32,269 nucleotides of DNA from a virus, in the IMG/VR virus record IMGVR_UViG_3300030430_002607, positions 1 to 32,269 of that record; one strand, 5' to 3'. Both the position numbers and the translations under genes were made by a program. Each line of letters begins with the position of its first letter. Position 1 is the stretch's first letter. Of the stretch, positions 17,532-29,095 are shown piece by piece. Under the pieces are notes generated by a model. The model ran no database searches. It was given only the letters and a program-made list of their open reading frames with translations, and was not told the DNA's origin.

Positions 17532-19000
17532 GAAACGACAAACGATATCTTTTAAAAGAAAGGTTGGCTAAAAAGTTTGACACTAGATACGATGAGGCTC
17601 TAAATAAGTCTCCTGATCAACTTGAAGAAAAGCAAATTAACGAAATTGTAAATGAGATTACTTCATTAAAAGAAAAACTAACTCTTACTCCATATGAAAA
17701 ACAGGTAGTCCCGCTGGGAAAGAACAGTGACAAAACAAAAGTTTTATTTCACAGAAGAAAATATTATAGAGACTACGCCTTACCAGATACTACCAAAAAT
17801 CTTAATGAAATTGATGGCGAAGTGCCGGATGATACCACAAACTTTCAGGGTGAAAGGAATGCTATAGTTTCTCCTTTCGCCACAATTGACTTATTAAATC
17901 AAAAGTCTTTCTATGGCAAAATTGACACAAATAATCGCTCCATATATCCATCAGAAAAGTTTCTTAAGATGGTTAATACAGAAAAGACTGTAATGTTGAT
18001 TAATTTTGTTGCAGACGCAGCAAATGATATGATGGAAAAGATCGAGAGAATGACTCAGACTGGGAAAATTAAAAGCACCTCTACATATGCTCAATTTGAG
18101 CCAAAAACTGGATGGAGTAGTTTTACCTCGGTTCATCATAGTTTCATGAAAGGGGTGTTTGAGTTGTTTATATCAAAATATGCCACTTCTAGTGAGTTTT
18201 TTACTAAAATTGTCGATTTTAACTCATATGTAACACATTTTATTAAATTTTTAAATGCGTTTTTGCCTGTGCATCCCATAACTAGATCAAACATGCAACT
18301 GGCTAGCGTTGTTAATCCAAATATTACTGGTTTAGTGTTTGAAATCGAGTCAGATCCTCATGATAATGATGAAAAAAAATATAAGAAGTATATATTAGAT
18401 CCTCATTTTGAGGATATTACAAAAATAGCAAATGGTTTTGGATTTATGATAGATAAAAATGCTCCATGGAGGTTTATTGCGGATTTGGAATCACCGCAAA
18501 TGCAGCAAAGAATGCAGGATTTGGGATTTTTCACATTGCAAGATATGTTTTCTGCATACTACTACGATACTCATTTATATGAGATTAACGCAATTAGAGA
18601 CTACTTTTTATCTTTTTATGATTCTTATGTAGAGGCTTATCCGTTCTACACCAAAGTTGATGTTTGTGCTGCAGGTGCAAAAACTATTCTTCATCAAAGG
18701 AGAAAAAGAAATAAAAATCCGTTCACCGATTCTAAGTTACTTGAAGTGTATCTTTATATAAAAGCGAAAGAAGGAAACAAAGAATGGAATCAGTCCAACT
18801 TTGATCTCTGTCTAAAAGAAGCAATTTCTGTTTTTAATACGTATGGCTTCGTAAATGCTCTGCACTACATCAATGACAAAACAACCAACATAGTTGGAGA
18901 AGGTGCAAATCCGGGCATGAGAACAAAGATTGAAGAAAATTATCGAATATATTCTACTCGTCAAACGTATAATAATAGCACATATACAATTAAATTATAG
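17528..19000 (+). CDS. Conserved virion-module protein of unknown function
   Basis: A 490-residue soluble protein with a charged helical N-terminus. A distinctive central block reads VHPITRSNMQLASVVNPNIT, then GLVFEIESDPHDND, then a helix and GFMIDKNAPWRFIADLESP. I recognise this block from marine myoviruses but know no function for it. The start overlaps the preceding stop by 4 bases, so it belongs to the baseplate operon. Its last codons (STRQTYNN) contain the bipartite promoter at 18945-18973 that faces the polymerase gene, which may constrain the C-terminal sequence. Confidence 0.6.
   Translation: MRNDKRYLLKERLAKKFDTRYDEALNKSPDQLEEKQINEIVNEITSLKEKLTLTPYEKQVVPLGKNSDKTKVLFHRRKYYRDYALPDTTKNLNEIDGEVPDDTTNFQGERNAIVSPFATIDLLNQKSFYGKIDTNNRSIYPSEKFLKMVNTEKTVMLINFVADAANDMMEKIERMTQTGKIKSTSTYAQFEPKTGWSSFTSVHHSFMKGVFELFISKYATSSEFFTKIVDFNSYVTHFIKFLNAFLPVHPITRSNMQLASVVNPNITGLVFEIESDPHDNDEKKYKKYILDPHFEDITKIANGFGFMIDKNAPWRFIADLESPQMQQRMQDLGFFTLQDMFSAYYYDTHLYEINAIRDYFLSFYDSYVEAYPFYTKVDVCAAGAKTILHQRRKRNKNPFTDSKLLEVYLYIKAKEGNKEWNQSNFDLCLKEAISVFNTYGFVNALHYINDKTTNIVGEGANPGMRTKIEENYRIYSTRQTYNNSTYTIKL
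18945..18973 (+). promoter_or_regulatory. Bipartite early/middle promoter, copy 1 (inside preceding gene)
   Basis: GAATA at 18945-18949, exactly 13 bases, AAACG at 18963-18967, then TATAAT at 18968-18973. It is wholly inside the coding sequence of the last structural gene, 35 bases before the DNA polymerase ATG, and marks the switch from late to replication genes. Confidence 0.8.
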
Positions 19001-19008
19001 GAGGAAAT

Positions 19009-20190
19009 ATGCTGTTTCAAACACTCGATGACAAATCAGAGTGTGTCGGTGTGTATTCCAACGGCGAACTTCATTTCAAAGATATCCCAGAAGGATTGTC
19101 TAAGACTTGGGGCTATTCAAACTTTTTATATGGAATGCCTATCGATTATGCTCAACTATATGTTAACGGAAAAAGCCTTGATGATGTGTGTCCATCTCAT
19201 CTTTTAGAAGATTGGGAAAGGGTTACAAACAGACTAAAGGCTTTCATTCGTTCAAACCAACTAGCAAAGGTTAATCTAGCAGAGAACTGCTTTTTTGACT
19301 TAACGCCAGAGAGGTTTCTCAAAGAATACTGCAATATCAGAAATCAAATCTGTGAGTGGGTATTTGAGAAATATTCTCGCCCAGACAACTACGATCATTT
19401 GTTGCAAGTGCAGCAAGTTTTGTCTGATATCAAGTACCGTAAAGTGAATTTAGATACTAAAGTATTACAAGATTTTTGGACAGAACCAAAAGCAAAACTT
19501 CTTTACAAGAAATTTACAGGCAGAGATGCCTACTGTGATTATAATTTATTCGGCTCTAAAACAGGCAGGCTGAGCCTTTCAGGCAACTCCCTACCCCTAA
19601 TGAACATGAAGAAGGAATACAGGGCTTGTATCAAGCCTAACAACGATTTCTTTATTGAACTAGATTATAACGCAGCAGAAGCAAGAGTCGTACTTGCTCT
19701 ACTCGGATTAGATCAGCCTGATGAAGATATACACGACTATAACGCAAAAAATCTCTATCACAGTACCAGAGACGAAGCGAAGAAAAGATTCTTTGCTTGG
19801 TTGTATAATCCGAACTCAGATGATACAGTCTCTAATGGGCAATATGATAGAGATTTAATTTTGGGCAGATACTTTCTATACGGTTCAGTAGAGAATTTAT
19901 TCAAAAGAAAGATACAATGTGATGATTATCATGCTTTAAACTACCTTATCCAAAGCACATGTGCAGATATGGTACTCGATAGAATGGTGGCGATCTACAA
20001 ACTCCTACAGGGCAGAAAGAGTTATGTAGCGTTCACCCTTCACGACAGTGTTATTATTGACTTTGCTTCCGAAGATAAGGAACTTATAAAACCAATCATC
20101 GAAGAATACAGAAGTACTAAATTGGGCAGATTTGTTACGAATGTATCAGCAGGAAAGGATTTATATAATATTAATAAAATATGTATATAA
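19009..20190 (+). CDS. Family A DNA polymerase, polymerase domain only
   Basis: A 393-residue replicative-type polymerase. Motifs in order: TGRLS (185-189); motif A LDYNAAEAR with Asp219 as metal ligand; O-helix RDEAKKRFFAWLY with R254, K258, F262 and Y266 matching E. coli Pol I R754, K758, F762 and Y766; NYLIQSTCADMV (Q-x-T-x-A-D); motif C LHDS with His345-Asp346. The Glu usual after HD is Ser347. Residues 1-170 hold a thumb-like helical region but no DxE or other exonuclease motif, so proofreading must come from another protein or be absent. T4 itself uses a family B polymerase (gp43). AGGAGG precedes the ATG, and the bipartite promoter lies 35 bases upstream. Confidence 0.9.
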   Translation: MLFQTLDDKSECVGVYSNGELHFKDIPEGLSKTWGYSNFLYGMPIDYAQLYVNGKSLDDVCPSHLLEDWERVTNRLKAFIRSNQLAKVNLAENCFFDLTPERFLKEYCNIRNQICEWVFEKYSRPDNYDHLLQVQQVLSDIKYRKVNLDTKVLQDFWTEPKAKLLYKKFTGRDAYCDYNLFGSKTGRLSLSGNSLPLMNMKKEYRACIKPNNDFFIELDYNAAEARVVLALLGLDQPDEDIHDYNAKNLYHSTRDEAKKRFFAWLYNPNSDDTVSNGQYDRDLILGRYFLYGSVENLFKRKIQCDDYHALNYLIQSTCADMVLDRMVAIYKLLQGRKSYVAFTLHDSVIIDFASEDKELIKPIIEEYRSTKLGRFVTNVSAGKDLYNINKICI

Positions 20191-20300
20191 TTTATATAAT
20201 TGTTAATATATTATTAATAATATTATAAAAACACAATAAAATATTAATATTTGAGTATTAATAAAAGTTATAATAAGAATTAAAAATAAGGAGATAAGAA
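20191..20300 (+). other. Almost pure A+T intergenic tract
   Basis: About 110 bases with very few G or C, made of overlapping TTAATA, AATATT and TATTAATA words that can pair in several ways. It separates polymerase and FtsZ-like genes. It lacks the bipartite promoter seen elsewhere. A TATAAT at 20269-20274 is present without a well-spaced partner. It could be an easily melted origin-type or promoter region; I cannot decide from the sequence. Confidence 0.5.
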
Positions 20301-20305
20301 ATAAA

Positions 20306-21145
20306 ATGAATATTATTGGATTAGGAAAAGCAGGATGTAAAATAGCACAACTATTTAAAGAATATCCTCAGTATACTGTCTTTTTACTTGACTCAGATGA
20401 TAAGTATAAAAGAAAGAAAAATTGTTTTCACATACCTCAGCAACAATCAGCAGAACTTTATGATGCAAGTGCGATAGATTTAACAAAACTTGTAAAGTCC
20501 CTCGATGATGATGAGGAAGTGTATTTTATTGTCTGTGGATCAGGAAAGATATCGGCATGTTCTCTTTGGATTTTGCAGCAATTAAAACATAGAAAGATCA
20601 ACATTTTATATATCAAACCAGATGTTGACAAACTAGACAATAAATCTAGATTAAGAAATCGAGCACACTTTCATATTCTTCAGGAGTATACAAGATCAGG
20701 TGTTTTTGAAAAAATGTTTATATTTGACAATAATATGGTTTCAGATATAGTTGGAAAGTCTTCAATACTTAACTTTTACCCAAAGATTAACAGACTGGTT
20801 GCAACATCTATACATTGGCTTAACATATACATGAATACAGATCCCGTATTTGATACTTTTAGAGAAAAGTATATAAGTTCTAGAATAGGGACTATTGGAG
20901 TTATAGATCTCGAACAATATCAAGTTATGGATTGCTCTGGCATAAAAAATGCAAATCAGATTGAATATTTCTTTGGCATCAACCGTATAAGAATAGAGAA
21001 CGATGAAGAACTGTTTGATAAATTAAACAATATGGCTTCATCGGAATCAGAGCAAAAGTCTATCTCTTTTGGAGTTTATACTACAGATTTGGAAGAAGGC
21101 TTTTCGTTCGCTTTGAAAACATCATCTGAAATTCAATCTGAATAA
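20306..21145 (+). CDS. Divergent tubulin/FtsZ-like protein
   Basis: A 279-residue protein. Its order of elements follows FtsZ: N-terminal strand and Gly loop NIIGLGKAGCKIA (compare the FtsZ start V-I-G-V-G-G-G-G); second strand TVFLLDSDD; VYFIVCGSGKISACS at residues 72-86 where FtsZ has its GGGTG(T/S)G signature; ILYIKPD (FtsZ V-V-T-K-P-F); an Arg-rich helix followed by a strand and DNN (FtsZ I-P-N-D); then helix INRLVATSIHWLN. The Gly signature is reduced to CGSG, so nucleotide binding and polymerisation are uncertain. The C-terminal half is shorter than in FtsZ. The fold call is by-eye inference. It sits between the polymerase and gp32-region genes. AAGGAG precedes the ATG by 11 bases. Confidence 0.55.
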   Translation: MNIIGLGKAGCKIAQLFKEYPQYTVFLLDSDDKYKRKKNCFHIPQQQSAELYDASAIDLTKLVKSLDDDEEVYFIVCGSGKISACSLWILQQLKHRKINILYIKPDVDKLDNKSRLRNRAHFHILQEYTRSGVFEKMFIFDNNMVSDIVGKSSILNFYPKINRLVATSIHWLNIYMNTDPVFDTFREKYISSRIGTIGVIDLEQYQVMDCSGIKNANQIEYFFGINRIRIENDEELFDKLNNMASSESEQKSISFGVYTTDLEEGFSFALKTSSEIQSE

Positions 21146-21168
21146 AACACTGTTCTCAAACGTATAAA
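21140..21168 (+). promoter_or_regulatory. Bipartite early/middle promoter, copy 2
   Basis: GAATA at 21140-21144 (overlapping the Glu-stop codons of the upstream gene), 13 bases, AAACG at 21158-21162, then TATAAA at 21163-21168. It faces the SH3-like gene, whose ATG is 24 bases downstream. Confidence 0.75.
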
Positions 21169-21192
21169 AGATGTCAACAAAAGGAGATAAAA

Positions 21193-21474
21193 ATGACAAA
21201 CATTAAATACTATCGTGGAACTTTTTCCAAATCAAACGGAGAATTACGAACAATGTTCTTTGTTCGCTCTCAGGATCTACCTATCACCTTTGTGCAAAAC
21301 AATACCAAAGGCACAGGTAAACAACGCAATCTTAAAGAAGGCTTAGAAACCGTATGGGATCTTCAGGCTCAAGGATGGCGTACCTTCAATTGGCGTACTG
21401 CGAATACCGATGAAGTAGTTTCTTTTGAAGGAAATCAAGAAATTTTGAATAATTTCAACAACTCAAACGTATAA
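21193..21474 (+). CDS. Small SH3-like beta-barrel protein
   Basis: A 93-residue protein: MTNIKYYRGTFSKSNGELR, TMFFVRSQDLP, KGTGKQRNLKEGLETVWDLQ, then GWRTFNWRTANTDEVV. The short strands with F-x-R, K-R-N-L-x-x-G-x-E-x-V-W-D and F-N-W match a small family in T4-like phages usually labelled SH3-fold protein, of unknown job. Its placement before gp32 and under a bipartite promoter suggests early or middle expression. AAAGGAG lies upstream of the ATG. Its last codons and stop overlap the promoter for gp32. Confidence 0.7.
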   Translation: MTNIKYYRGTFSKSNGELRTMFFVRSQDLPITFVQNNTKGTGKQRNLKEGLETVWDLQAQGWRTFNWRTANTDEVVSFEGNQEILNNFNNSNV

Positions 21475-21475
21475 T
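21447..21475 (+). promoter_or_regulatory. Bipartite early/middle promoter, copy 3 (for gene 32)
   Basis: GAATA at 21447-21451, 13 bases, AAACG at 21465-21469, then TATAAT at 21470-21475. It overlaps the final codons and stop of the preceding gene and lies 74 bases upstream of the gp32-like start. Confidence 0.8.
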
Positions 21476-21482
21476 AAGATAG

Positions 21483-21506
21483 AGGGATGATAGATCAATC
21501 ATCTCT
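21483..21506 (+). promoter_or_regulatory. Hairpin at the 5' end of the gene 32 leader
   Basis: AGGGATGAT (21483-21491) pairs with ATCATCTCT (21498-21506), nine pairs including one G-T, around AGATCA. It should form at the extreme 5' end of RNA from the promoter just upstream. Downstream to the ATG the leader is A-rich and unstructured. T4 gene 32 mRNA has a 5' pseudoknot plus an unstructured operator for autogenous repression; the resemblance is architectural only. Confidence 0.5.
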
Positions 21507-21549
21507 ACTTTAGACAAAAAGTCAAAATTTAAACAAAGGAGAAAATATT

Positions 21550-22317
21550 ATGGCTATTGATTTTAATAAAATGAGACAAAAACTCAATGCATTGCAAGGA
21601 AATGGCAATGGAAACTCAACCCAAAACGCATTTTGGAAACCACAAGACGGTGATCAAACGATTCGCATTGTTTGTCCCGAAGACGGAGATCCGTTCAAGC
21701 AATATTACTTTCATTATAATGTAGGTAAGAATCCCGGATTTTTGTGTAATAAAAAGATGCACGGCGAAGATTGCCCTGTGTGCGACTTTGCATGGAGCAC
21801 TTATAATGACGCAAAGAAGGCAGGTGATACTGAAACACTCAAGTTCTGTAAAACCTTGTTTGCTAAAGAACGCTTTTTCTCACCTGTTGTAGTTCGAGGT
21901 GAAGAAGATCAAGGTATTAAATTGTGGGGCTACGGAAAGACGGCTTATGGCGAATTGATCGGACTGGTAACTAATCCCGACTATGGTGATATTACTGATG
22001 TTGATGGCGGTACTGACTTGTCAATCAACTATGGTAAACCACCCGGTGCGCAGTTCCCAGTAACTAAAATCACTCCACGTCGTCGCCCAAGTGCTTTGGC
22101 AGAAACCTCTGAAGACACAGTCCGCATCATGGATACAATGCCTTCATTCACAGAGAATTTCAACACCAAAACTACGGAAGAAATCGAAACTATGCTTTCT
22201 GAATTCTTGAACGCCGAAGCAGGTACATCGACTGCTGATAACTCTACTGGTACTACCAAGTATTCTAATTCAGAGACATCAGACGTTGATGCAGCATTCA
22301 AAGAGTTATTATCATAA
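21550..22317 (+). CDS. 32: Single-stranded DNA-binding protein, T4 gp32-like
   Basis: A 255-residue protein that coats ssDNA during replication and recombination and works with the polymerase, helicase and UvsX encoded around it. The N-terminal basic segment (MAIDFNKMRQKLNALQ) is the cooperativity region. The core has a zinc site: His55, Cys66, Cys75 and Cys78 (FLCNKKMHGEDCPVCDF), like the His-Cys-Cys-Cys site of gp32. The acidic, Ser/Thr-rich C-terminal tail ends SDVDAAFKELLS. T4 gp32 is 301 residues. Start: AAAGGAG then an A-rich spacer to ATG. Confidence 0.9.
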   Translation: MAIDFNKMRQKLNALQGNGNGNSTQNAFWKPQDGDQTIRIVCPEDGDPFKQYYFHYNVGKNPGFLCNKKMHGEDCPVCDFAWSTYNDAKKAGDTETLKFCKTLFAKERFFSPVVVRGEEDQGIKLWGYGKTAYGELIGLVTNPDYGDITDVDGGTDLSINYGKPPGAQFPVTKITPRRRPSALAETSEDTVRIMDTMPSFTENFNTKTTEEIETMLSEFLNAEAGTSTADNSTGTTKYSNSETSDVDAAFKELLS

Positions 22318-22334
22318 AATATCTCCTATGATAT

Positions 22335-22426
22335 GTGAGTTTGGTAGTTCTCACCAAAAACTGCTAGCGAGAAATGTTCACCTCGCTTATCGATAACCGC
22401 AGGTAGGCATGGGTTTACAGATGCCT
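22335..22426 (+). promoter_or_regulatory. Structured leader of uvsX: three stem-loops
   Basis: Three consecutive perfect hairpins, each with a 10-nt loop: GTGAG/CTCAC (22335-22354), AGCGAG/CTCGCT (22366-22387), AGGCAT/ATGCCT (22405-22426). The third is followed by TTATTTT and may be a weak terminator. No bipartite promoter is visible here, so uvsX is probably read from gene 32 through this region. A role in attenuation or translational control, or as a processed small RNA, is inference. Confidence 0.5.
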
Positions 22427-22450
22427 TATTTTACAAACAATGGAGAAAAA

Positions 22451-23587
22451 ATGCCTCGCAAAAAAACTATTAAGCCCGTTAGTGGCAAACTGTCCTTCAA
22501 GGATAAATTGAAAATGATTAATAAACTGGCAGGTGGTGACGTAGCACACGATCTGACAGAAGAGAACCCAACAGATGTATATGATTGGATTCCCACTTCT
22601 TCAACATGGCTAGACTCAATAGTCTGCAGAGGGAAGAAGGCAGGGATACCTGTTGGTAGGATTACAGAATTAGCAGGACTGAGTGGAACAGGAAAGTCTT
22701 ATATGGCTGCTCAGATCTCTGGTAATGCACAGAAAAAAGGCTACAATGTTTATTATTTCGATTCCGAGTCGGCAATTAGTTCTGAGTTTCTTGAAAAATG
22801 TGGTTGTGTGTTAGAAGAGTCAGAAGATTATGGTGACTTTGTGTATATTCAGGCTCAGAATGTCGAGTTTGTCCTAGAAACTATTGAGACGATCTTGGCT
22901 TCAGGAGAAGAGAACAATTTATTTGTTTGGGACTCCTTGGCTCTTACTCCTGCTATTGCAGATTTGGAATCGGATTTTAATCCACAGAGTACGATGGCAG
23001 TGAAGCCACGTATCCTGTCGAAAGGTTTGGCTAAATTATTGCAGCCAATCTCAAACTCCAACTCCGCTTTGCTGGTGCTAAATCAGTTGAAAGACAATAT
23101 CACTCGATCACCTGCAGAAGCAATGACTACTCCTTATTTCACTCCCGGTGGAAAAGCACTAATCTATTCATATTCCCTCCGCATTTGGCTTACAGGGAGA
23201 AAAGCAAAGGCATCCTTTGTTACAGATGATAAGGGCTATAGGATTGGTTCCGAAGTAAAATGTAAACTAGAGAAATCACGTTTTGGAACACATGGACGTA
23301 TGTGTAACTTCAAAATCCTATGGGGCGATGAAGTAGGTATTCAAGATGAGGAATCTTGGTTCGATGCAATTGCACCTTCTGAATACATCAGCAATAGTGG
23401 GGCTTGGTTTAATCTGAAAAAGGACGGCTATGAGAAGAAGTTCCAGAAGTCAAAGTTCGCAGATATGGCAAGAGAAGATGCAGAATTTAGAAAAGTAATT
23501 TTGGACATCATTGATGAAGAAGTCATCATGAAGTTCGACAAAAGATTGGGTGAGGCATCCCAGTACTACGAAGATAATGAAGCATAG
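22451..23587 (+). CDS. uvsX: UvsX, RecA-type recombinase
   Basis: A 378-residue strand-exchange ATPase of phage recombination-dependent replication. Walker A is GLSGTGKS (residues 76-83), Walker B LFVWDS with Asp161; YYFDSE follows the first ATPase strand. The L2-like region contains TTPYFTPGGKAL, preceded by LLVLNQLKDNI. The C-terminal region YYEDNEA is acidic. T4 UvsX has 391 residues. I chose the ATG at 22451 (MPRKKTIKP) because GGAG lies 8 bases upstream; the in-frame ATG at 22409 falls inside the third leader hairpin with no ribosome binding site. A strong terminator follows. Confidence 0.92.
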   Translation: MPRKKTIKPVSGKLSFKDKLKMINKLAGGDVAHDLTEENPTDVYDWIPTSSTWLDSIVCRGKKAGIPVGRITELAGLSGTGKSYMAAQISGNAQKKGYNVYYFDSESAISSEFLEKCGCVLEESEDYGDFVYIQAQNVEFVLETIETILASGEENNLFVWDSLALTPAIADLESDFNPQSTMAVKPRILSKGLAKLLQPISNSNSALLVLNQLKDNITRSPAEAMTTPYFTPGGKALIYSYSLRIWLTGRKAKASFVTDDKGYRIGSEVKCKLEKSRFGTHGRMCNFKILWGDEVGIQDEESWFDAIAPSEYISNSGAWFNLKKDGYEKKFQKSKFADMAREDAEFRKVILDIIDEEVIMKFDKRLGEASQYYEDNEA

Positions 23588-23627
23588 ATGTAGTACGAAA
23601 TGACTCCTTTGTTTGTTTGTGTTGTGG

Positions 23628-23661
23628 CTCCCTATCATTTATTTGGTAGGGAGTTTTTTTT
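23628..23661 (+). terminator. Intrinsic terminator after uvsX
   Basis: CTCCCTATC pairs with GGTAGGGAG (9 bp, one T-G) around an 8-nt loop, followed by eight T residues. It ends the gp32-uvsX transcript just before a late motif. Confidence 0.9.
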
Positions 23662-23665
23662 GCGA

Positions 23666-23674
23666 CTATTTATA
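23666..23674 (+). promoter_or_regulatory. Candidate late promoter motif (CTATTTATA)
   Basis: The only late motif inside the replication region, 4 bases after the uvsX terminator and 20 bases before the next ATG. It implies that the following gene is expressed late although its neighbours are replication genes. Confidence 0.55.
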
Positions 23675-23694
23675 ACAAAATCGGAGAATTATTG

Positions 23695-24384
23695 ATGAAT
23701 CCAAAAAGACAAGTTATTGAACAGGCAATCATGGATCTTGAAGAAAATAAAGAGACAGTTAGACAAATTTATGAGGATTGGCTAGACGCAGGGGTAGGAA
23801 AACACTCTGCTCCCCATGCCGACGCTATGCGTAAAGCACGAGAAGAACGTAGTAACATAGCAGTTAGGCTTTTTCGTGACTATGTGGATTTCCAAAGAAA
23901 TCCTGTTGTTGGTAATCCGAATGAACAATATTATGATCCCAATCCAACACCTGTTTTAAAACTCAGTGATTTCGGGTTAAGCGGCCCAATAATTACTGGA
24001 TACTCGACTCTGAGTCTTCCCCGTGCAGAGAGGACTATAGGAAGAATAGATAAATTTATTGGACAACTAAAGAGAAAATTAAACAAAAGAAAAGATTTAC
24101 AAGAGGAGAAAACTATCATGAAAATCGACAAAACTTACATCAGACAATTAGTAAAAGAAGCATTAGACGAGGCTAAATACGAAGATGATATTCTGGCTGG
24201 AGAAGAAGCATTAGAAAAGCACATGAGAAGCAAACAACGCTCTCCGTCTCCAAGTAAATCTTCGGCACCACGCAAGAATATGTCATCCGAAGAAATTGAA
24301 GATACTATGACGTCACTAGCAAAGCAATTGCAAGCACAAGGCTTCGGTGTCAGTTTAAAAATTAATGGCGAGAAGAAAGTATGA
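23695..24384 (+). CDS. Unknown late protein, two-part (possible internal start)
   Basis: A 229-residue charged protein. Residues 1-141 are helical with a central Pro/Gly region (NPTPVLKLSDFGLSGPIITG). Residue 142 is an internal Met that begins a segment reading MKIDKTYIRQLVKEALDEAKY, followed by a Ser/Pro/Lys linker and a C-terminal amphipathic helix. The internal Met has its own GAGGAG at 24103-24108. No domain is recognised. I start at the ATG at 23695, after CGGAGA; the TTG just before it is less likely. The late motif, isolated position and leader-like internal segment suggest a virion or head-internal protein. Confidence 0.6.
   Translation: MNPKRQVIEQAIMDLEENKETVRQIYEDWLDAGVGKHSAPHADAMRKAREERSNIAVRLFRDYVDFQRNPVVGNPNEQYYDPNPTPVLKLSDFGLSGPIITGYSTLSLPRAERTIGRIDKFIGQLKRKLNKRKDLQEEKTIMKIDKTYIRQLVKEALDEAKYEDDILAGEEALEKHMRSKQRSPSPSKSSAPRKNMSSEEIEDTMTSLAKQLQAQGFGVSLKINGEKKV
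24118..24384 (+). CDS. Possible in-frame internal translation product (88 residues)
   Basis: The ATG at 24118 is in frame with the longer gene and has GAGGAG 9 bases upstream, better than the ribosome binding site of the full-length start. The product would begin MKIDKTYIRQLVKEALDEAK, a stand-alone N-terminal leader type seen on many marine phage proteins, with a possible prohead-protease cut after Glu18 (L-D-E|A). The long form would then be a fusion of two formerly separate genes. Inference from ribosome binding site and leader only. Confidence 0.4.
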   Translation: MKIDKTYIRQLVKEALDEAKYEDDILAGEEALEKHMRSKQRSPSPSKSSAPRKNMSSEEIEDTMTSLAKQLQAQGFGVSLKINGEKKV

Positions 24385-24411
24385 ATAAATGATCCCTCTT
24401 AAACGTATAAT
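24383..24411 (+). promoter_or_regulatory. Bipartite early/middle promoter, copy 4
   Basis: GAATA at 24383-24387 (overlapping the stop codon of the upstream gene), 13 bases, AAACG at 24401-24405, then TATAAT at 24406-24411. The discriminator continues into TATACGGAGG, placing the ribosome binding site almost at the RNA 5' end. It drives the small ORF and RNase H. Confidence 0.8.
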
Positions 24412-24426
24412 ATATACGGAGGAAAT

Positions 24427-24555
24427 ATGGAACATTTAACAAATTGTCATGGCGAATGGAATGCTTTACTTGCCATGGGTTCGTCATTACCATTTATCGG
24501 ATTTTGGCTCAAAGCAAAAATAGGAGGTGGTTGTGAAAAAGATTCTAATCATTGA
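24427..24555 (+). CDS. Small protein (42 residues) with one hydrophobic helix
   Basis: The ATG at 24427 has an excellent CGGAGGAAAT ribosome binding site and lies 16 bases after the promoter. It encodes a short N-terminal part (MEHLTNCHGEWNALLAMG), a hydrophobic segment SSLPFIGFWL, then a basic/Gly/Cys tail. It overlaps the RNase H start by 23 bases, and the GGAGG within its codons serves as the RNase H ribosome binding site. It may be a small membrane-associated phage protein or a coupling leader peptide. Function unknown. Confidence 0.6.
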   Translation: MEHLTNCHGEWNALLAMGSSLPFIGFWLKAKIGGGCEKDSNH

Positions 24556-25501
24556 TGCACTTAACATGTTTTTTAGGTGCTATGCAAGGGATCCAAGTAT
24601 TAGCATACAGGGTAACCCTGCAGGCGGCTGTATTGGCTTTTTGAAGTCTTTACAGAAGTCCATAAGACTAACTAAGCCTGACGATGTTGTAATCGTTTGG
24701 GACGGCGGTGGTGGCTCCAGAAAGAGACGACAAATCAATGCCAACTACAAAGCAGGTAGAAAAGTTGTACACCTTCCAAAAGATATGGGCTACGACTTTT
24801 CTTTACAGCAAGAGAAAGATAACAAAGTTTGGCAGCAAGCAAGACTGTTAGAATATCTAGATCATTTACCAATATGTCAGTTCATGTTTGAAGATGTGGA
24901 AGCAGACGATGTTATATCAGCAATCGTGCAATCAAAGGGCGTCTCTGAAGATCAAAAAATTATTTTGTCGAACGACAAGGACTTCATGCAGTTGTGTGAT
25001 GATAAAACTATCTTAATGCGTCCTGCAAAGAAGCCTTGGGAAGTTCTCAATACAAATAGAATCCTAGAAGACTTAAAGATCCATCCAAAGAATATGGCGT
25101 TAGCCAGAGCAATGGTTGGTGATGCTAGTGATAATCTTCCGGGTGTTCCGGGTATTGGCTTTGGGCGTGTGGCAAAATTCTATCCTTTTCTTTCTAGAGA
25201 CGAGGAATACAGCGCTCAAGATCTATTTAATGCTACTACCAATCTCTTGCAAGAAAAGAAGAGCAAATATTTAGAGGCTGTACTGGAGCATAAGGACACA
25301 ATACATGAAAACTACAGGATTATGCAACTATATCAACCTTCAATTTCTTATCAGAGACGTCAGATGATAAACAATTGTCTAACGAACAGAGACAAGCACT
25401 TCAATCTTACAGGATTGAAATTGATGCTATCAGAAGATGGATTCATGTCATTGAAGTGGGAAGTCCTAGAACAAACAATGAGAAGAATAATCTCTGAATA
25501 A
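24533..25501 (+). CDS. rnh: RNase H / 5'-3' exonuclease (T4 Rnh-like, FEN family)
   Basis: A 322-residue nuclease that removes RNA primers from lagging strands. Metal-binding acidic residues are visible in order: ILIIDALN (Asp8), VIVWDGGG (Asp57), FEDVEADD (Glu123, Asp125, Asp126), LSNDKDF (Asp148, Asp150), GDASDN (Asp197, Asp200), followed by LPGVPGIGFGRV, the helix-hairpin-helix DNA-binding element. T4 Rnh has 305 residues. Start: GTG at 24533, 6 bases after AGGAGG; GTG at 24527 overlaps that ribosome binding site. Ends on a Glu-stop that overlaps the next promoter. Confidence 0.9.
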   Translation: MKKILIIDALNMFFRCYARDPSISIQGNPAGGCIGFLKSLQKSIRLTKPDDVVIVWDGGGGSRKRRQINANYKAGRKVVHLPKDMGYDFSLQQEKDNKVWQQARLLEYLDHLPICQFMFEDVEADDVISAIVQSKGVSEDQKIILSNDKDFMQLCDDKTILMRPAKKPWEVLNTNRILEDLKIHPKNMALARAMVGDASDNLPGVPGIGFGRVAKFYPFLSRDEEYSAQDLFNATTNLLQEKKSKYLEAVLEHKDTIHENYRIMQLYQPSISYQRRQMINNCLTNRDKHFNLTGLKLMLSEDGFMSLKWEVLEQTMRRIISE

Positions 25502-25524
25502 AACAGGCAACACAAACGTATAAT
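25496..25524 (+). promoter_or_regulatory. Bipartite early/middle promoter, copy 5 (for helicase)
   Basis: GAATA at 25496-25500 (the Glu-stop of RNase H), 13 bases, AAACG at 25514-25518, then TATAAT at 25519-25524. AAGGAGGG precedes the helicase ATG 21 bases further on. Confidence 0.8.
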
Positions 25525-25544
25525 AAAACAAACAAGGAGGGTTA

Positions 25545-26906
25545 ATGAATATGAAAAGAATGCCAGAAGATTTTTCCAGATTTGGAAAACACTTTCAAGA
25601 ATCGATGGTTCAATTAATGTTGGAGGATAGAAACTATTGTGATCAAATCACAGAGGTTTTAGACATCAACTTCTTTGAATTATCTTACTTACAGACATTC
25701 GTGTCTAAGATCTTGAAATATAGAGAGAAATACAAGGTTCATCCGACTTATAAGACGATGATAACGATATTAAGAACAGAATTAGAGAACGAGAACGAAG
25801 CACTACAACGACAGGTAAAAGAATACTTTGCTCGTATCCATGGCTCAGAAGTAGAAGATTGCGAATACATCATGGGTGTTAGTCTAGACTTTTGCAGAAA
25901 GCAGAAGTTGAAAGGTGCTCTAATGGAAACAGTAGAATTAATGCAATCCTCTTCATTCGACGAGATCAGCAAGATTATCAACAATGCTCTTTCACTAGGG
26001 CTAGGAAACGAAGCAGGCTATGAATACCTTACAGACTTTGAAGAAAGATATGAACTCAAGGCTCGTAATCCGCAATCTACAGGCTGGGAACACATAGATG
26101 ACATAACAGGTGGTGGACTTGGCATAGGCGAGTTAGGAGTCGTTGTAGCACCCACAGGAGCAGGTAAATCTATGGTTCTAACAGCGTTGGGCGCAGAAGC
26201 AGTTAAGGCTGGAAAAACAGTTGTGCACTATACTTTTGAACTTTCTGATAAAGTTATCGGTAGACGCTATGATTCATGTATCACAAACGTTCCACTGTCA
26301 GATTTGAACAGTTTTAAGGAACAAGTTTATGACGAAATCAGTCAATTAAATGGCTCCCTCATAATTAAGGAATATCCGACTAAATCTGCTTCAACACAAA
26401 CTCTAAGAAATCACTTAGAAAAGTTGAAGAAAAGAGGAGTTGAGATAGGTATGATTATTGTTGATTATGCTGATTTACTTAAGCCTGTGAGCATGACAAG
26501 GGAGAAAAGACATGATTTGGAGAACATATACGAAGAACTACGTGGTATGGCTCAGATGTTCGAATGTCCACTTTGGACAGCATCCCAAACAAATCGTTCA
26601 GGGCTTAATGCAGAGGTTGTTACAATGGAAGCAATCTCAGAGGCATTTAATAAGTGTTTTGTTGCCGATTTTATCTGTTCTGTGTCAAGGACAGCGCAAG
26701 ATAAGGTTAACAACACAGGTAGAATGTTTGTAGCCAAGAACAGAAACGGGGTTGACGGAATCGTATACCCAATCGTGGCAGACTGGAGCACTGTAAGCAT
26801 GCAAGTTCTAGCAGAGTCCACGGAGACAATGCAAGAAATGGAGGAAAGATCTCTCTCTGAGCACAAAGCGGATCTATACCAAAGATACAAGAACAAGGAG
26901 AAATAG
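25545..26906 (+). CDS. 41: Replicative DNA helicase, T4 gp41 / DnaB-like
   Basis: A 453-residue hexameric helicase. Residues 1-150 are the helical N-terminal domain. Residues 175-210 contain TGWEHIDDITGGGLGIGELG and Walker A APTGAGKS (202-209). TFELSDKVIGRR matches the DnaB-type E-x-S(D) helix, and MIIVDYADLL is Walker B with Asp307. The segment ASQTNRSG (near 350) is the sensor/H4 loop, and VAKNRNGVDG holds the finger region. T4 gp41 is 475 residues. A primase (gp61) is not in this window. GGAGG then ATG; a second ATG lies 6 bases later. The ribonucleotide reductase starts 2 bases after the stop. Confidence 0.9.
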   Translation: MNMKRMPEDFSRFGKHFQESMVQLMLEDRNYCDQITEVLDINFFELSYLQTFVSKILKYREKYKVHPTYKTMITILRTELENENEALQRQVKEYFARIHGSEVEDCEYIMGVSLDFCRKQKLKGALMETVELMQSSSFDEISKIINNALSLGLGNEAGYEYLTDFEERYELKARNPQSTGWEHIDDITGGGLGIGELGVVVAPTGAGKSMVLTALGAEAVKAGKTVVHYTFELSDKVIGRRYDSCITNVPLSDLNSFKEQVYDEISQLNGSLIIKEYPTKSASTQTLRNHLEKLKKRGVEIGMIIVDYADLLKPVSMTREKRHDLENIYEELRGMAQMFECPLWTASQTNRSGLNAEVVTMEAISEAFNKCFVADFICSVSRTAQDKVNNTGRMFVAKNRNGVDGIVYPIVADWSTVSMQVLAESTETMQEMEERSLSEHKADLYQRYKNKEK

Positions 26907-26908
26907 CA

Positions 26909-28765
26909 ATGGAAGTATCAAATCAAATACTATCGGACATCACAGTCCACATGAAATATGCACGTTATCTGGAAGACAAGCAGAGACGTGAGAACTGGAA
27001 TGAACTTGTCACTCGTAATATGGAGATGCATATTAAAAAATATCCTCAACTGAGGGATGAGATTATTGAAACGTATAAGATGGTATTTGACAAGAAAGTG
27101 CTTCCGTCTATGAGATCTATGCAGTTTGGCGGGAAGCCCATTGAGGTTTCCCCTAATCGCATCTTCAACTGCGCCTTTATGCCTGTTGACGATCTTCGTT
27201 CTTTTTCGGAAGCGATGTTCTTGCTTTTGGGAGGAACTGGAGTAGGCTTCTCAGTACAACGTCATCACGTCGAGAAGTTACCAGAGATCCGAAAGCCAAA
27301 CGAAAATAGAACTAGGCGATATCTAGTAGCAGACTCTATTGAAGGGTGGGCAGATGCAATCAAGGTACTTTTAAATTCTTACTTCAAAGGGACTTCCAAG
27401 ATCCGTTTCGACTTTTCTGATATCCGAGCAAAAGGAGCCAAATTGGTAACTTCAGGCGGTAAAGCACCCGGCCCACAGCCTCTTCGTGAGTGCATTGTAA
27501 AGGTTAAAGGTATTTTACGACAAAAAGAAGATGGCACTAAACTAACTACAATAGAAGCCCATGATATTATGTGTCATATCGCAGATGCAGTATTGGCAGG
27601 TGGTATTCGACGTGCAGCGCTTATCTCTCTGTTCTCTGCGGATGATATTGAGATGTTGACTGCTAAGTCTGGTAACTGGTGGGAACTCAATCCTCAACGT
27701 GGTAGAGCGAATAACTCTGTTGTTCTTCTGCGACACAAGATCAAGAAAGACTTCTTTATGGATATCTGGGAACGCGTCAGAGCATCAGGTGCTGGAGAGC
27801 CCGGATTCTACTTTTCTAATGATAAGGACTGGGGAACAAACCCTTGCTGCGAAATCGCACTTCGATCTTATCAATTCTGCAACTTAACAGAGATCAATGT
27901 GTCTGATGTTGCAGATCAGGAAGAACTAGAGAAGAGAGCAAGAGCAGCGTCTTTTATCGGCACACTACAGGCAGGATATACAGACTTCCACTACCTTCGC
28001 CCTGTGTGGCAACGTACAACCGAAAAAGATGCTTTAGTAGGCGTCTCAATGACTGGTATTGCTTCTGGCGGCGTGTTGGGGCTCGATATGAGCAAAGCAG
28101 CCCTTGAGGTTAAGAAAGAAAACCGTAGAATTGCAATGCAGATCGGAATCAAGCCTGCTGCTAGGACAACGTGTGTCAAGCCGGCAGGGACTACATCTTT
28201 GACTGTTGGTACCTCAAGTGGTATTCATGCGTGGCATAACGATTATTATATACGCAGATTGCGAGTAGGAAAGAATGAATCAATCTATAACTACCTTTTG
28301 CGGAACCATCCAGAGTTGGTTGAGGACGAATACTTCTCACCACATGACACTGCAGTCATTTCTGCACCTCAGAAGGCTCCTGAAGGCGCTATAACACGTT
28401 CTGAGAGTGCCATGGACATGTTGGAGAGGGTTAAGGCTGTAACGTCTTCTTGGGTGCGTGGTGGACACCAGAGAGGGCAGAATTCTCATAATGTTTCTGC
28501 CACTGTGACTATCAAAGATAACGAATGGGAAACAGTAGGAGAATGGATGTGGGAGAATCGTGATTCTTACAACGGATTATCAGTTCTGCCGTTCAATGAT
28601 CATACCTACAAGCAGGCTCCATTTGAAGACTGCTCAGAAGAAGAATATAATGAAATGTTGAAAAGTTTGAAAGCAATCAACCTAGACAACGTTTCAGAAG
28701 AAGAAGATCAGACAAATCTATCAGGTGAACTAGCCTGTGCAGGAGGATCTTGCGAAATCTTCTAA
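26909..28765 (+). CDS. nrdJ: Class II (adenosylcobalamin-dependent) ribonucleotide reductase
   Basis: A 618-residue monomeric-type RNR that makes deoxynucleotides for phage DNA. Active-site residues: Cys88 in NRIFNCAFMP; NPCCE (Cys313, Glu315) with Cys324 in CNLTEINV; C-terminal redox pair Cys610 and Cys615 in ACAGGSCEIF with CxxxxC spacing. This matches the Lactobacillus-type triphosphate reductase that uses B12 to make the thiyl radical. It is shorter than that enzyme (about 740 residues), missing part of the N-terminal region. T4 instead encodes class I NrdA/B. Cobalamin must come from the host or the medium. It is co-transcribed with the helicase, 2 bases downstream. Confidence 0.88.
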   Translation: MEVSNQILSDITVHMKYARYLEDKQRRENWNELVTRNMEMHIKKYPQLRDEIIETYKMVFDKKVLPSMRSMQFGGKPIEVSPNRIFNCAFMPVDDLRSFSEAMFLLLGGTGVGFSVQRHHVEKLPEIRKPNENRTRRYLVADSIEGWADAIKVLLNSYFKGTSKIRFDFSDIRAKGAKLVTSGGKAPGPQPLRECIVKVKGILRQKEDGTKLTTIEAHDIMCHIADAVLAGGIRRAALISLFSADDIEMLTAKSGNWWELNPQRGRANNSVVLLRHKIKKDFFMDIWERVRASGAGEPGFYFSNDKDWGTNPCCEIALRSYQFCNLTEINVSDVADQEELEKRARAASFIGTLQAGYTDFHYLRPVWQRTTEKDALVGVSMTGIASGGVLGLDMSKAALEVKKENRRIAMQIGIKPAARTTCVKPAGTTSLTVGTSSGIHAWHNDYYIRRLRVGKNESIYNYLLRNHPELVEDEYFSPHDTAVISAPQKAPEGAITRSESAMDMLERVKAVTSSWVRGGHQRGQNSHNVSATVTIKDNEWETVGEWMWENRDSYNGLSVLPFNDHTYKQAPFEDCSEEEYNEMLKSLKAINLDNVSEEEDQTNLSGELACAGGSCEIF

Positions 28766-28773
28766 TTTAGATT

Positions 28774-28802
28774 GAATATAATATCCTCCTCAAACGTATA
28801 AT
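28774..28802 (+). promoter_or_regulatory. Bipartite early/middle promoter, copy 6, inside a hairpin loop
   Basis: GAATA at 28774-28778, 13 bases, AAACG at 28792-28796, then TATAAT at 28797-28802. AAACG and TATAAT lie in the loop of the 28783-28820 hairpin. Initiation near 28809 would give a leader of about 17 bases with a free ribosome binding site. Confidence 0.8.
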
Positions 28803-28825
28803 ATATACAAAGAGGAGGATTTTTT
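28783..28825 (+). terminator. Terminator/ribosome-site-sequestering hairpin with embedded promoter
   Basis: ATCCTCCTC (28783-28791) pairs perfectly with GAGGAGGAT (28812-28820), followed by five more T residues (28821-28825). The 20-base loop holds the promoter core and can itself fold as GTATA-ATA-TATAC (28796-28808). The 3' arm is the ribosome binding site of the gene at 28826. RNA reading through from the reductase would terminate or be silenced; RNA starting in the loop lacks the 5' arm. Confidence 0.75.
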
Positions 28826-29095
28826 ATGAAACCAGTCAATAGACATTTATTGGTAGAGATACCAGTTGAAGAAAAAGAGGAAGTGGTAACGACTTTTATA
28901 TTGCCAACTTCTTTTAAACCACAAGAAGTGGAAAGATACACAAAAGTTAACATTGTGACATGTGCAGACGACTGTAAACAGAGATATTCTGGAGAAGCAT
29001 ATGTTGAGACTTCAATGATTGAAGATATATCGATAGAAGGGGAGGTATACCATATTGTTTCTGAGAACTATTTAGTATTACTACTGGGGGCGTAA
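28826..29095 (+). CDS. GroES-like co-chaperonin (T4 gp31-type)
   Basis: An 89-residue protein. It starts MKPVNRHLLVEIPVEEK, the GroES-type first strand (K/R-P-x-x-x-R-x-L-V), followed by a mobile-loop-like stretch (TTFILPTSFKPQEVERY), then strands VNIVTCADDCKQRY, EAYVETSMIEDI and the closing strand EVYHIVSENYLVLLL. T4 gp31 (111 residues) replaces GroES so that GroEL can fold gp23, and the presence of a gp23-like capsid protein in this window fits that role. The length is at the low end for the family. The stop overlaps the ThyX start by 1 base (TAATG). Confidence 0.65.
   Translation: MKPVNRHLLVEIPVEEKEEVVTTFILPTSFKPQEVERYTKVNIVTCADDCKQRYSGEAYVETSMIEDISIEGEVYHIVSENYLVLLLGA

Follow-up and report, generated by a model that had tools for sequence, protein, structure and literature searches.

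A promoter nested in a terminator-like hairpin: a candidate start-site-gated switch before a gp31-like gene of a distant T4-like phage

Introduction

In phage T4 genes e, soc, 49, I-TevI/II/III and segB, and in the Aeh1 gene mobE, early RNA folds into a structure that masks the ribosome binding site (RBS), which becomes accessible in late RNA that begins within that structure (PMC3014915, PMC2988022). Gating of an RBS by a nested promoter is therefore already known from T4. For comparison, e and I-TevI were folded here from the T4 record NC_000866, and soc, 49, segB, mobE and I-TevII/III were compared by description. The fold of gene e places one TATAAATA late promoter in the 5′ arm and a second in the loop. 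In the I-TevI fold, the Shine–Dalgarno (SD) sequence lies in the 3′ arm and the late promoter TAATAAATA lies within the 5′ arm. The initial annotation of the locus described here knew of no T4 promoter in a terminator loop and thereby underestimated T4, as one of the gene e late promoters sits in the loop of its RBS hairpin (PMC3014915; fold).

A comparable arrangement is found upstream of a gp31/GroES-like gene in a far relative of T4. Three features appear to be new: the arm lies between the −35 and −10 boxes, the layout is used repeatedly in front of replication genes, and it is fused with a terminator. The open papers searched contained no case of a promoter within a terminator loop and described none of these three features, which is not proof of absence.

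Source sequence and gene setting

The window, meaning the whole stretch of DNA analysed, is a 32,269-base virus record (IMG/VR IMGVR_UViG_3300030430_002607, positions 1–32,269). It is assigned to a distant T4-like phage of a little-known marine T4-like family. Its major head protein matches phrog_138, and the closest matches to this protein, from named or uncultured phages that include Microcystis phage Mel-JY01, Rhodothermus phage RM378 and Flavobacterium phage immuto, share 30–50% identity at best. The contigs used for comparison (L numbers) are all metagenomic.

The last gene 5′ of the element encodes a ribonucleotide reductase (RNR), and its stop codon lies at 28763–28765. The gene that follows the element had been annotated as a co-chaperonin, an identity that the sequence of its 89-aa product conveys only weakly. 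A distant homologue in L161, which has the same RNR-gene neighbour, matches phrog_3188 GroES (4.9e-5) and Cpn10 (8.6e-4, under Pfam's cut-off), and it is on account of this homologue and the shared synteny that the gp31/GroES name is retained. Among annotated phages, tblastn with the 89-aa protein gave no matches and near blastn with the element region gave no relatives. Distant blastn of the region returned one 28-base match, to a Staphylococcus phage, which was judged to be chance. An AlphaFold2 model from a seven-member alignment of the 89-aa protein reached a pLDDT of 42.7, too poor for use. An Rfam search assigned the element to no family, and its one miRNA match was attributed to chance.

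Architecture of the element

The element proper comprises the whole 57 bp from 28772 to 28828 (+ strand), from the RNR stop side to the ATG of the gp31-like gene (Table 1). Direct reading confirms the perfect 9-bp hairpin followed by Ts that was described initially, together with the AAACG-TATAAT half of a promoter wholly inside the loop and a 3′ arm formed by the GAGGAGG RBS. The layout proposed for this ‘43-base element’ was correct and its extent was not, since the TTGAATA box also belongs to it. The loop spans 28792–28811 (20 nt), the −10 hexamer TATAAT at 28797–28802 lies 3′ of the 5′ arm, and the first T of the T6 run (28820) doubles as the final base of the stem.

Table 1. Coordinates of the element, its flanking genes and related features (window positions unless a contig is named).
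Feature	Position	Strand	Basis
Ribonucleotide reductase (RNR) gene, 618 aa	26909..28765	+	phrog_367, E 6.5e-136; ORF
Upstream promoter element TTGAATA (−35 region)	28772..28778	+	constant 13-nt separation from AAACGTATAAT across 122 distinct family promoters
Variable promoter spacer, 13 nt, houses the 5′ arm	28779..28791	+	sequence; least conserved promoter positions
Hairpin 5′ arm ATCCTCCTC, anti-Shine–Dalgarno	28783..28791	+	perfect complement of 28812–28820; fold; kept in L001, L003, L004
Downstream promoter element AAACGTATAAT (−10 region), entirely within the loop	28792..28802	+	family-wide motif
Transcription start, inferred	28809	+	about 7 nt past TATAAT, ±2; from promoter position
Hairpin 3′ arm GAGGAGGAT	28812..28820	+	sequence; pairs perfectly with ATCCTCCTC over 9 bp
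Ribosome binding site GAGGAGG, inside the 3′ arm	28812..28818	+	sequence
T6 run between RBS and ATG, a terminator-like tail	28820..28825	+	sequence
Start codon ATG of the gp31-like gene	28826..28828	+	sequence
gp31/GroES-like gene, 89 aa	28826..29095	+	ORF; distant homologue L161 and synteny
Weaker second instance: TGAATA-N13-AAACGTATAAT, spacer CCTC(T) against GGAGG of the small MEHLTNCHGEW gene	24378..24429	+	duplex, sequence
MKVTKSYI.QLVKEEL-type small ORFs	24119–24380; L003 279–650; L005 7723–8527; L007 7778–8694		

The element is predicted to fold at −17.3 kcal/mol, whereas shuffled versions average −6.9 (z −4.3) and none of 200 shuffles was as stable. Perfect 9-bp inverted repeats with a loop of at most 25 nt number four on the + strand of the window, against 4.15 in shuffles; only one, at 28783–28820, is T-tailed, against 0.02 expected per shuffle. 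A stable stem followed by a U tract, as in an intrinsic terminator, is thus present in the 9-bp stem and T6. Several of the nine stem pairs are A-T. The 20-nt loop is long for an intrinsic terminator, which is partly offset by an inner 5-bp helix (GTATA/TATAC) that forms within the loop and shortens it. A simple terminator scan, restricted to loops of 3–8 nt, did not list the element, and because its loop lies outside this range it is termed terminator-like rather than a canonical terminator.

A family-wide bipartite promoter

The promoter TTGAATA-N13-AAACGTATAAT occurs in 122 distinct copies and 62 gene clusters, with 13 bases between its boxes. GAATA, CGTATA and the spacing were set by the scan; the positions around them, left free or only partly fixed, are nevertheless conserved: GAATA is preceded by T and followed by AA, and CGTATA is preceded by AAA and followed by A(A/G). 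Consensus is lacking only in mid-spacer, the stretch occupied by the 5′ arm. The promoter is a real signal of the whole family. The window holds five exact copies of AAACGTATAAT, all on the + strand and from 18963 on (18963–28802), in its replication-gene part; its structural-gene half has no exact copy of the bipartite promoter. TTGAATA-N13-AAACGTATAAT is probably an early or middle promoter class of the family, with a presumed specificity factor.

Many family promoters, such as the helicase promoter at 25514, have neither an arm nor an adjoining terminator, and insulation is therefore not general. The promoter is absent from the farther RNR relatives (L063–L142) and from polymerase relatives beyond L168, so these sequences are uninformative on the element.

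Several other features accompany these promoters. A family promoter lies directly 5′ of a tRNA-like gene in L032 (about 4753) and L045 (about −7088). The post-promoter leader at 21476–21540 of the window, and those in L022, L028 and L056, share a conserved stem, AGAGGGATGATAGATCAATCATCTCTACTTTAGAC, which would form the extreme 5′ end of the mRNA. Leaders of genes starting MNK.E (L025, L023, L047, L044) carry a terminator-like hairpin, AAGGGCAGRCTA...TTTTGCCCTTTTTT, which starts immediately 3′ of the −10 box and precedes the RBS, a possible attenuator or small RNA.

Arms or separate terminators before the gp31-like gene

The gp31-like gene lies 3′ of the same RNR gene in seven other contigs (L001–L007). 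The nested layout, which the initial annotation suggested seeking upstream of gp31-like genes, is present in four genomes, namely the window and L001, L003 and L004, the last three having 7–9-bp arms, in one case including a G-U pair, and 7–8 consecutive Ts. The L001 spacer is otherwise changed relative to the window, yet CCTCCTC is retained. The window and L003/L004 have a near-identical intergenic stretch, perhaps due to recombination.

The layout is missing from L002, L005/L006 and L007, which keep the promoter without an arm and with T2–T4. The initial annotation had named relatives with the promoter but without the complementary arms as a refutation, and taken literally these contigs answer that description. 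In all of them, however, a canonical free-standing hairpin terminator, CCCAATGAAG...CTCTTGGG-T(n), lies 3′ of the RNR stop codon and 5′ of the promoter, consistent with the nested hairpin acting as a substitute insulator. The L002 copy was missed by a stricter terminator detector, as CA separates its stem and T run, and appears at −18.0 in another listing. Stabilities are −12 to −19 kcal/mol for the free-standing terminators and −14 to −17 kcal/mol for the nested hairpins at the gp31-like gene. The interior of the free-standing terminator (GTTGCCTCTC) is conserved in L002, L005 and L007 beyond the needs of the stem.

The two states are interspersed in an RNR tree, in which the terminator-bearing L002 falls with the arm-bearing L003 and L004, and L001 falls with the window. 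At the gp31-like gene a genome thus has a terminator ahead of the promoter or one folded around it. The exclusivity of arm and terminator gives a Fisher p of 0.029 with kinship ignored; since the lineages are related, this value and that for the exonuclease gene below are optimistic. Matches to CCTCCTCAAACGTATAAT in L061/L062 lie inside unrelated sequence and were dismissed as chance.

Anti-RBS spacers before other genes

The same layout is found again at genes for a 5′–3′ exonuclease (PF02739) and a PHP-domain polymerase (PF02811), where the promoter spacer likewise encodes an anti-RBS. The exonuclease gene has no arm in genomes where the ssb terminator is kept and abuts the −35 box of its promoter, and anti-SD spacers are present where other genes precede it (Fisher p 0.002, kinship ignored). 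The exonuclease arms are TAATCCCTC/GAGGGATTA in L031, where the arm extends to the start codon, TTCCCTC/GAGGGAA in L144 and CCCTC/GAGGG in L143 and L146, and their register within the spacer shifts (L031 versus L001). As the arm-bearing exonuclease leaders are without a T run, these copies would be locks only.

Upstream of the polymerase gene, arms are found in all five closest relatives, in which the upstream genes differ, with 5–12 pairs and in some cases one mismatch or bulge. The arm tracks the SD, pairing as CCTCCC/GGGAGG in L166 and as CCTCTC/GAGAGG in L165. In L165 and L167 the arm is followed by T6; the other three have interrupted Ts only. Even in local RNA, the SD of the polymerase leaders is predicted to be no more than partly free (0.19–0.48). 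Single cases occur before MTTKFKTILLDPPW in L043 and before MENIQTLKEVL in L045, where pairing runs through ACAATG and includes the start codon. The weaker instance within the window (Table 1) has a spacer–RBS duplex of −7.4 kcal/mol.

Two further observations were made. The terminator GGCTCCCTATCATT.ATTTGGTAGGGAG-T8 lies after the ssb gene; in the window (23626–23663) other ORFs intervene between it and the promoter that follows, and in L145, L147, L149 and L157 its T run directly adjoins the −35 box of that promoter. The small ORFs listed last in Table 1 have a common N-terminus and unrelated remainders, and are sometimes in tandem.

Pairing, RBS accessibility and T runs

Spacer–RBS duplexes of −12 kcal/mol or better are formed at 11 promoters, against a permuted mean of 1.2 and a maximum of 5 in 1000 permutations, and control 13-mers from just upstream of the −35 box formed none. 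Counted by cluster, the surplus shrinks: the median is −12 kcal/mol or lower in three clusters, where permutation gives a mean of 0.26 and no more than 3, so the device is confined to a minority of genes.

Folding of both transcript forms, as proposed initially, gave the anticipated difference: the SD of the window element is predicted to be unpaired at 0.73 in RNA starting at 28809 and at 0.001–0.002 in read-through RNA. Across arm-bearing promoters, predicted SD accessibility is 0.68 in local and 0.19 in read-through RNA, compared with 0.69 and 0.61 for armless promoters.

A run of at least five Ts between RBS and ATG is present in six of 12 strong-arm leaders (−12 kcal/mol or better) and in none of the 112 others (p 2e-7, with common descent ignored and the six leaders coming from two gene families). 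Because the T run is tied to the arm and free-standing terminators are replaced, real termination before the gp31-like gene is favoured.

A proposed start-site-gated switch and its alternatives

It seems likely that the element at 28772–28828 is a start-site-gated switch that combines termination, burial of the RBS in read-through RNA and expression from its own promoter. Polymerase arriving from the helicase and RNR genes would transcribe both arms, and the resulting RNA would fold into a hairpin ending in U6, at which much transcription would stop. In RNA that reads through, the hairpin would bury the GAGGAGG RBS of the chaperonin-like gene. RNA from the element's own promoter would start near 28809, lack the 5′ arm, escape termination and leave the RBS free. 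The gp31-like gene would then be expressed only from its own promoter and be insulated from the preceding operon. The initial annotation had reached much the same interpretation, and comparative evidence now backs its nested promoter, its RBS sequestration confined to read-through RNA and its terminator-like T run; how these act at the RNA level is predicted from sequence. The chances are even for a broader reading, in which promoter, terminator and translational lock form a three-in-one element, the free spacer of the promoter encodes the anti-RBS, and the design is reused gene by gene in place of free-standing terminators, each gene being translated only from own-promoter RNA.

The element might instead be a translational gate only, exactly like T4 gene e, with the T run as a spacer and negligible termination. 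This is a serious, if unlikely, contender: the exonuclease and other arm-bearing genes keep the arm without a T run, three of the five polymerase relatives have interrupted Ts, a T run is also missing from the hairpins of T4 e and I-TevI, and the long loop points the same way. However, runs of at least five Ts between RBS and ATG accompany arms only, in two gene families, and the armless gp31 relatives combine T2–T4 with a separate terminator. The converse, that the hairpin is solely an operon terminator whose 3′ arm coincides fortuitously with the purine-rich SD, with no role for RBS hiding, would explain the mutual replacement with canonical terminators at the gp31-like gene. It is improbable in view of the exonuclease anti-SD arm, which lacks a T run and reaches the start codon in L031, and of the L045 pairing through ACAATG.

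Two readings do without an RNA switch. The arms are symmetrical around the −10 box, as would suit a DNA operator at which a regulator brackets that box, yet the arm sequence varies by gene and tracks each SD, and the spacer register shifts, making an operator very improbable. Least credible is a chance encounter of a C/T-rich spacer with an AG-rich RBS. Some complementarity is expected, since TC precedes AAACG in the promoter consensus itself and every anti-SD can pair with every SD, and at the looser threshold of −8 kcal/mol the permuted mean rises to 9.1 of 122. Against this stand the excess at −12 kcal/mol, the empty control segments, and the retention and covariation across relatives, which already disfavour chance.

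Significance and comparison with known systems

If the switch operates as proposed, the T4 gene e trick would be a more general rule of design among distant T4 relatives, not a special case of late genes. The spacer, the only sequence-free part of the promoter, would carry the code for an RNA lock, and transcription of the preceding operon could be terminated within the same 40-odd bases as well. The insulation of operons in compact phage genomes would become directly testable, a spacer complementary to an RBS offers a signature that can be searched for elsewhere, and the element would be a ready-made insulated expression part.

Compared with the intrinsic terminators of the same phages, the element shares a stem followed by T6–T8 and a comparable stability, and differs in having a promoter in its loop, an RBS as its 3′ arm and a T run between RBS and ATG. 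The gating logic of I-TevI/II/III, segB, soc, 49 and mobE is the same; in I-TevI, however, the promoter lies in the 5′ arm rather than in the loop, there is no terminator, and nothing is inserted into a promoter spacer.

The closest likeness is to T4 gene e (lysozyme), a simpler version of the switch, in which read-through RNA hides the RBS and local RNA lacks the 5′ arm (PMC3014915). Here too, the SD is paired in the predicted folds of RNA from upstream promoters, and local RNA from the start inferred at about 28809 would be without the 5′ arm. In contrast, the T4 late promoter consists of a −10 element only, and the T4 arm is or adjoins this −10, whereas here the arm occupies the spacer between −35 and −10. 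The gene e hairpin has no T run (AGGAGGTATTATG), in contrast to the T6 found here. The T4 genes concerned are late genes inside early transcripts, whereas those described here are replication-region genes with one promoter type. As that promoter is the bipartite TTGAATA-N13-AAACGTATAAT and not the gp55-dependent TATAAATA of T4 late genes, the element would work like the T4 switch without being a copy of it.
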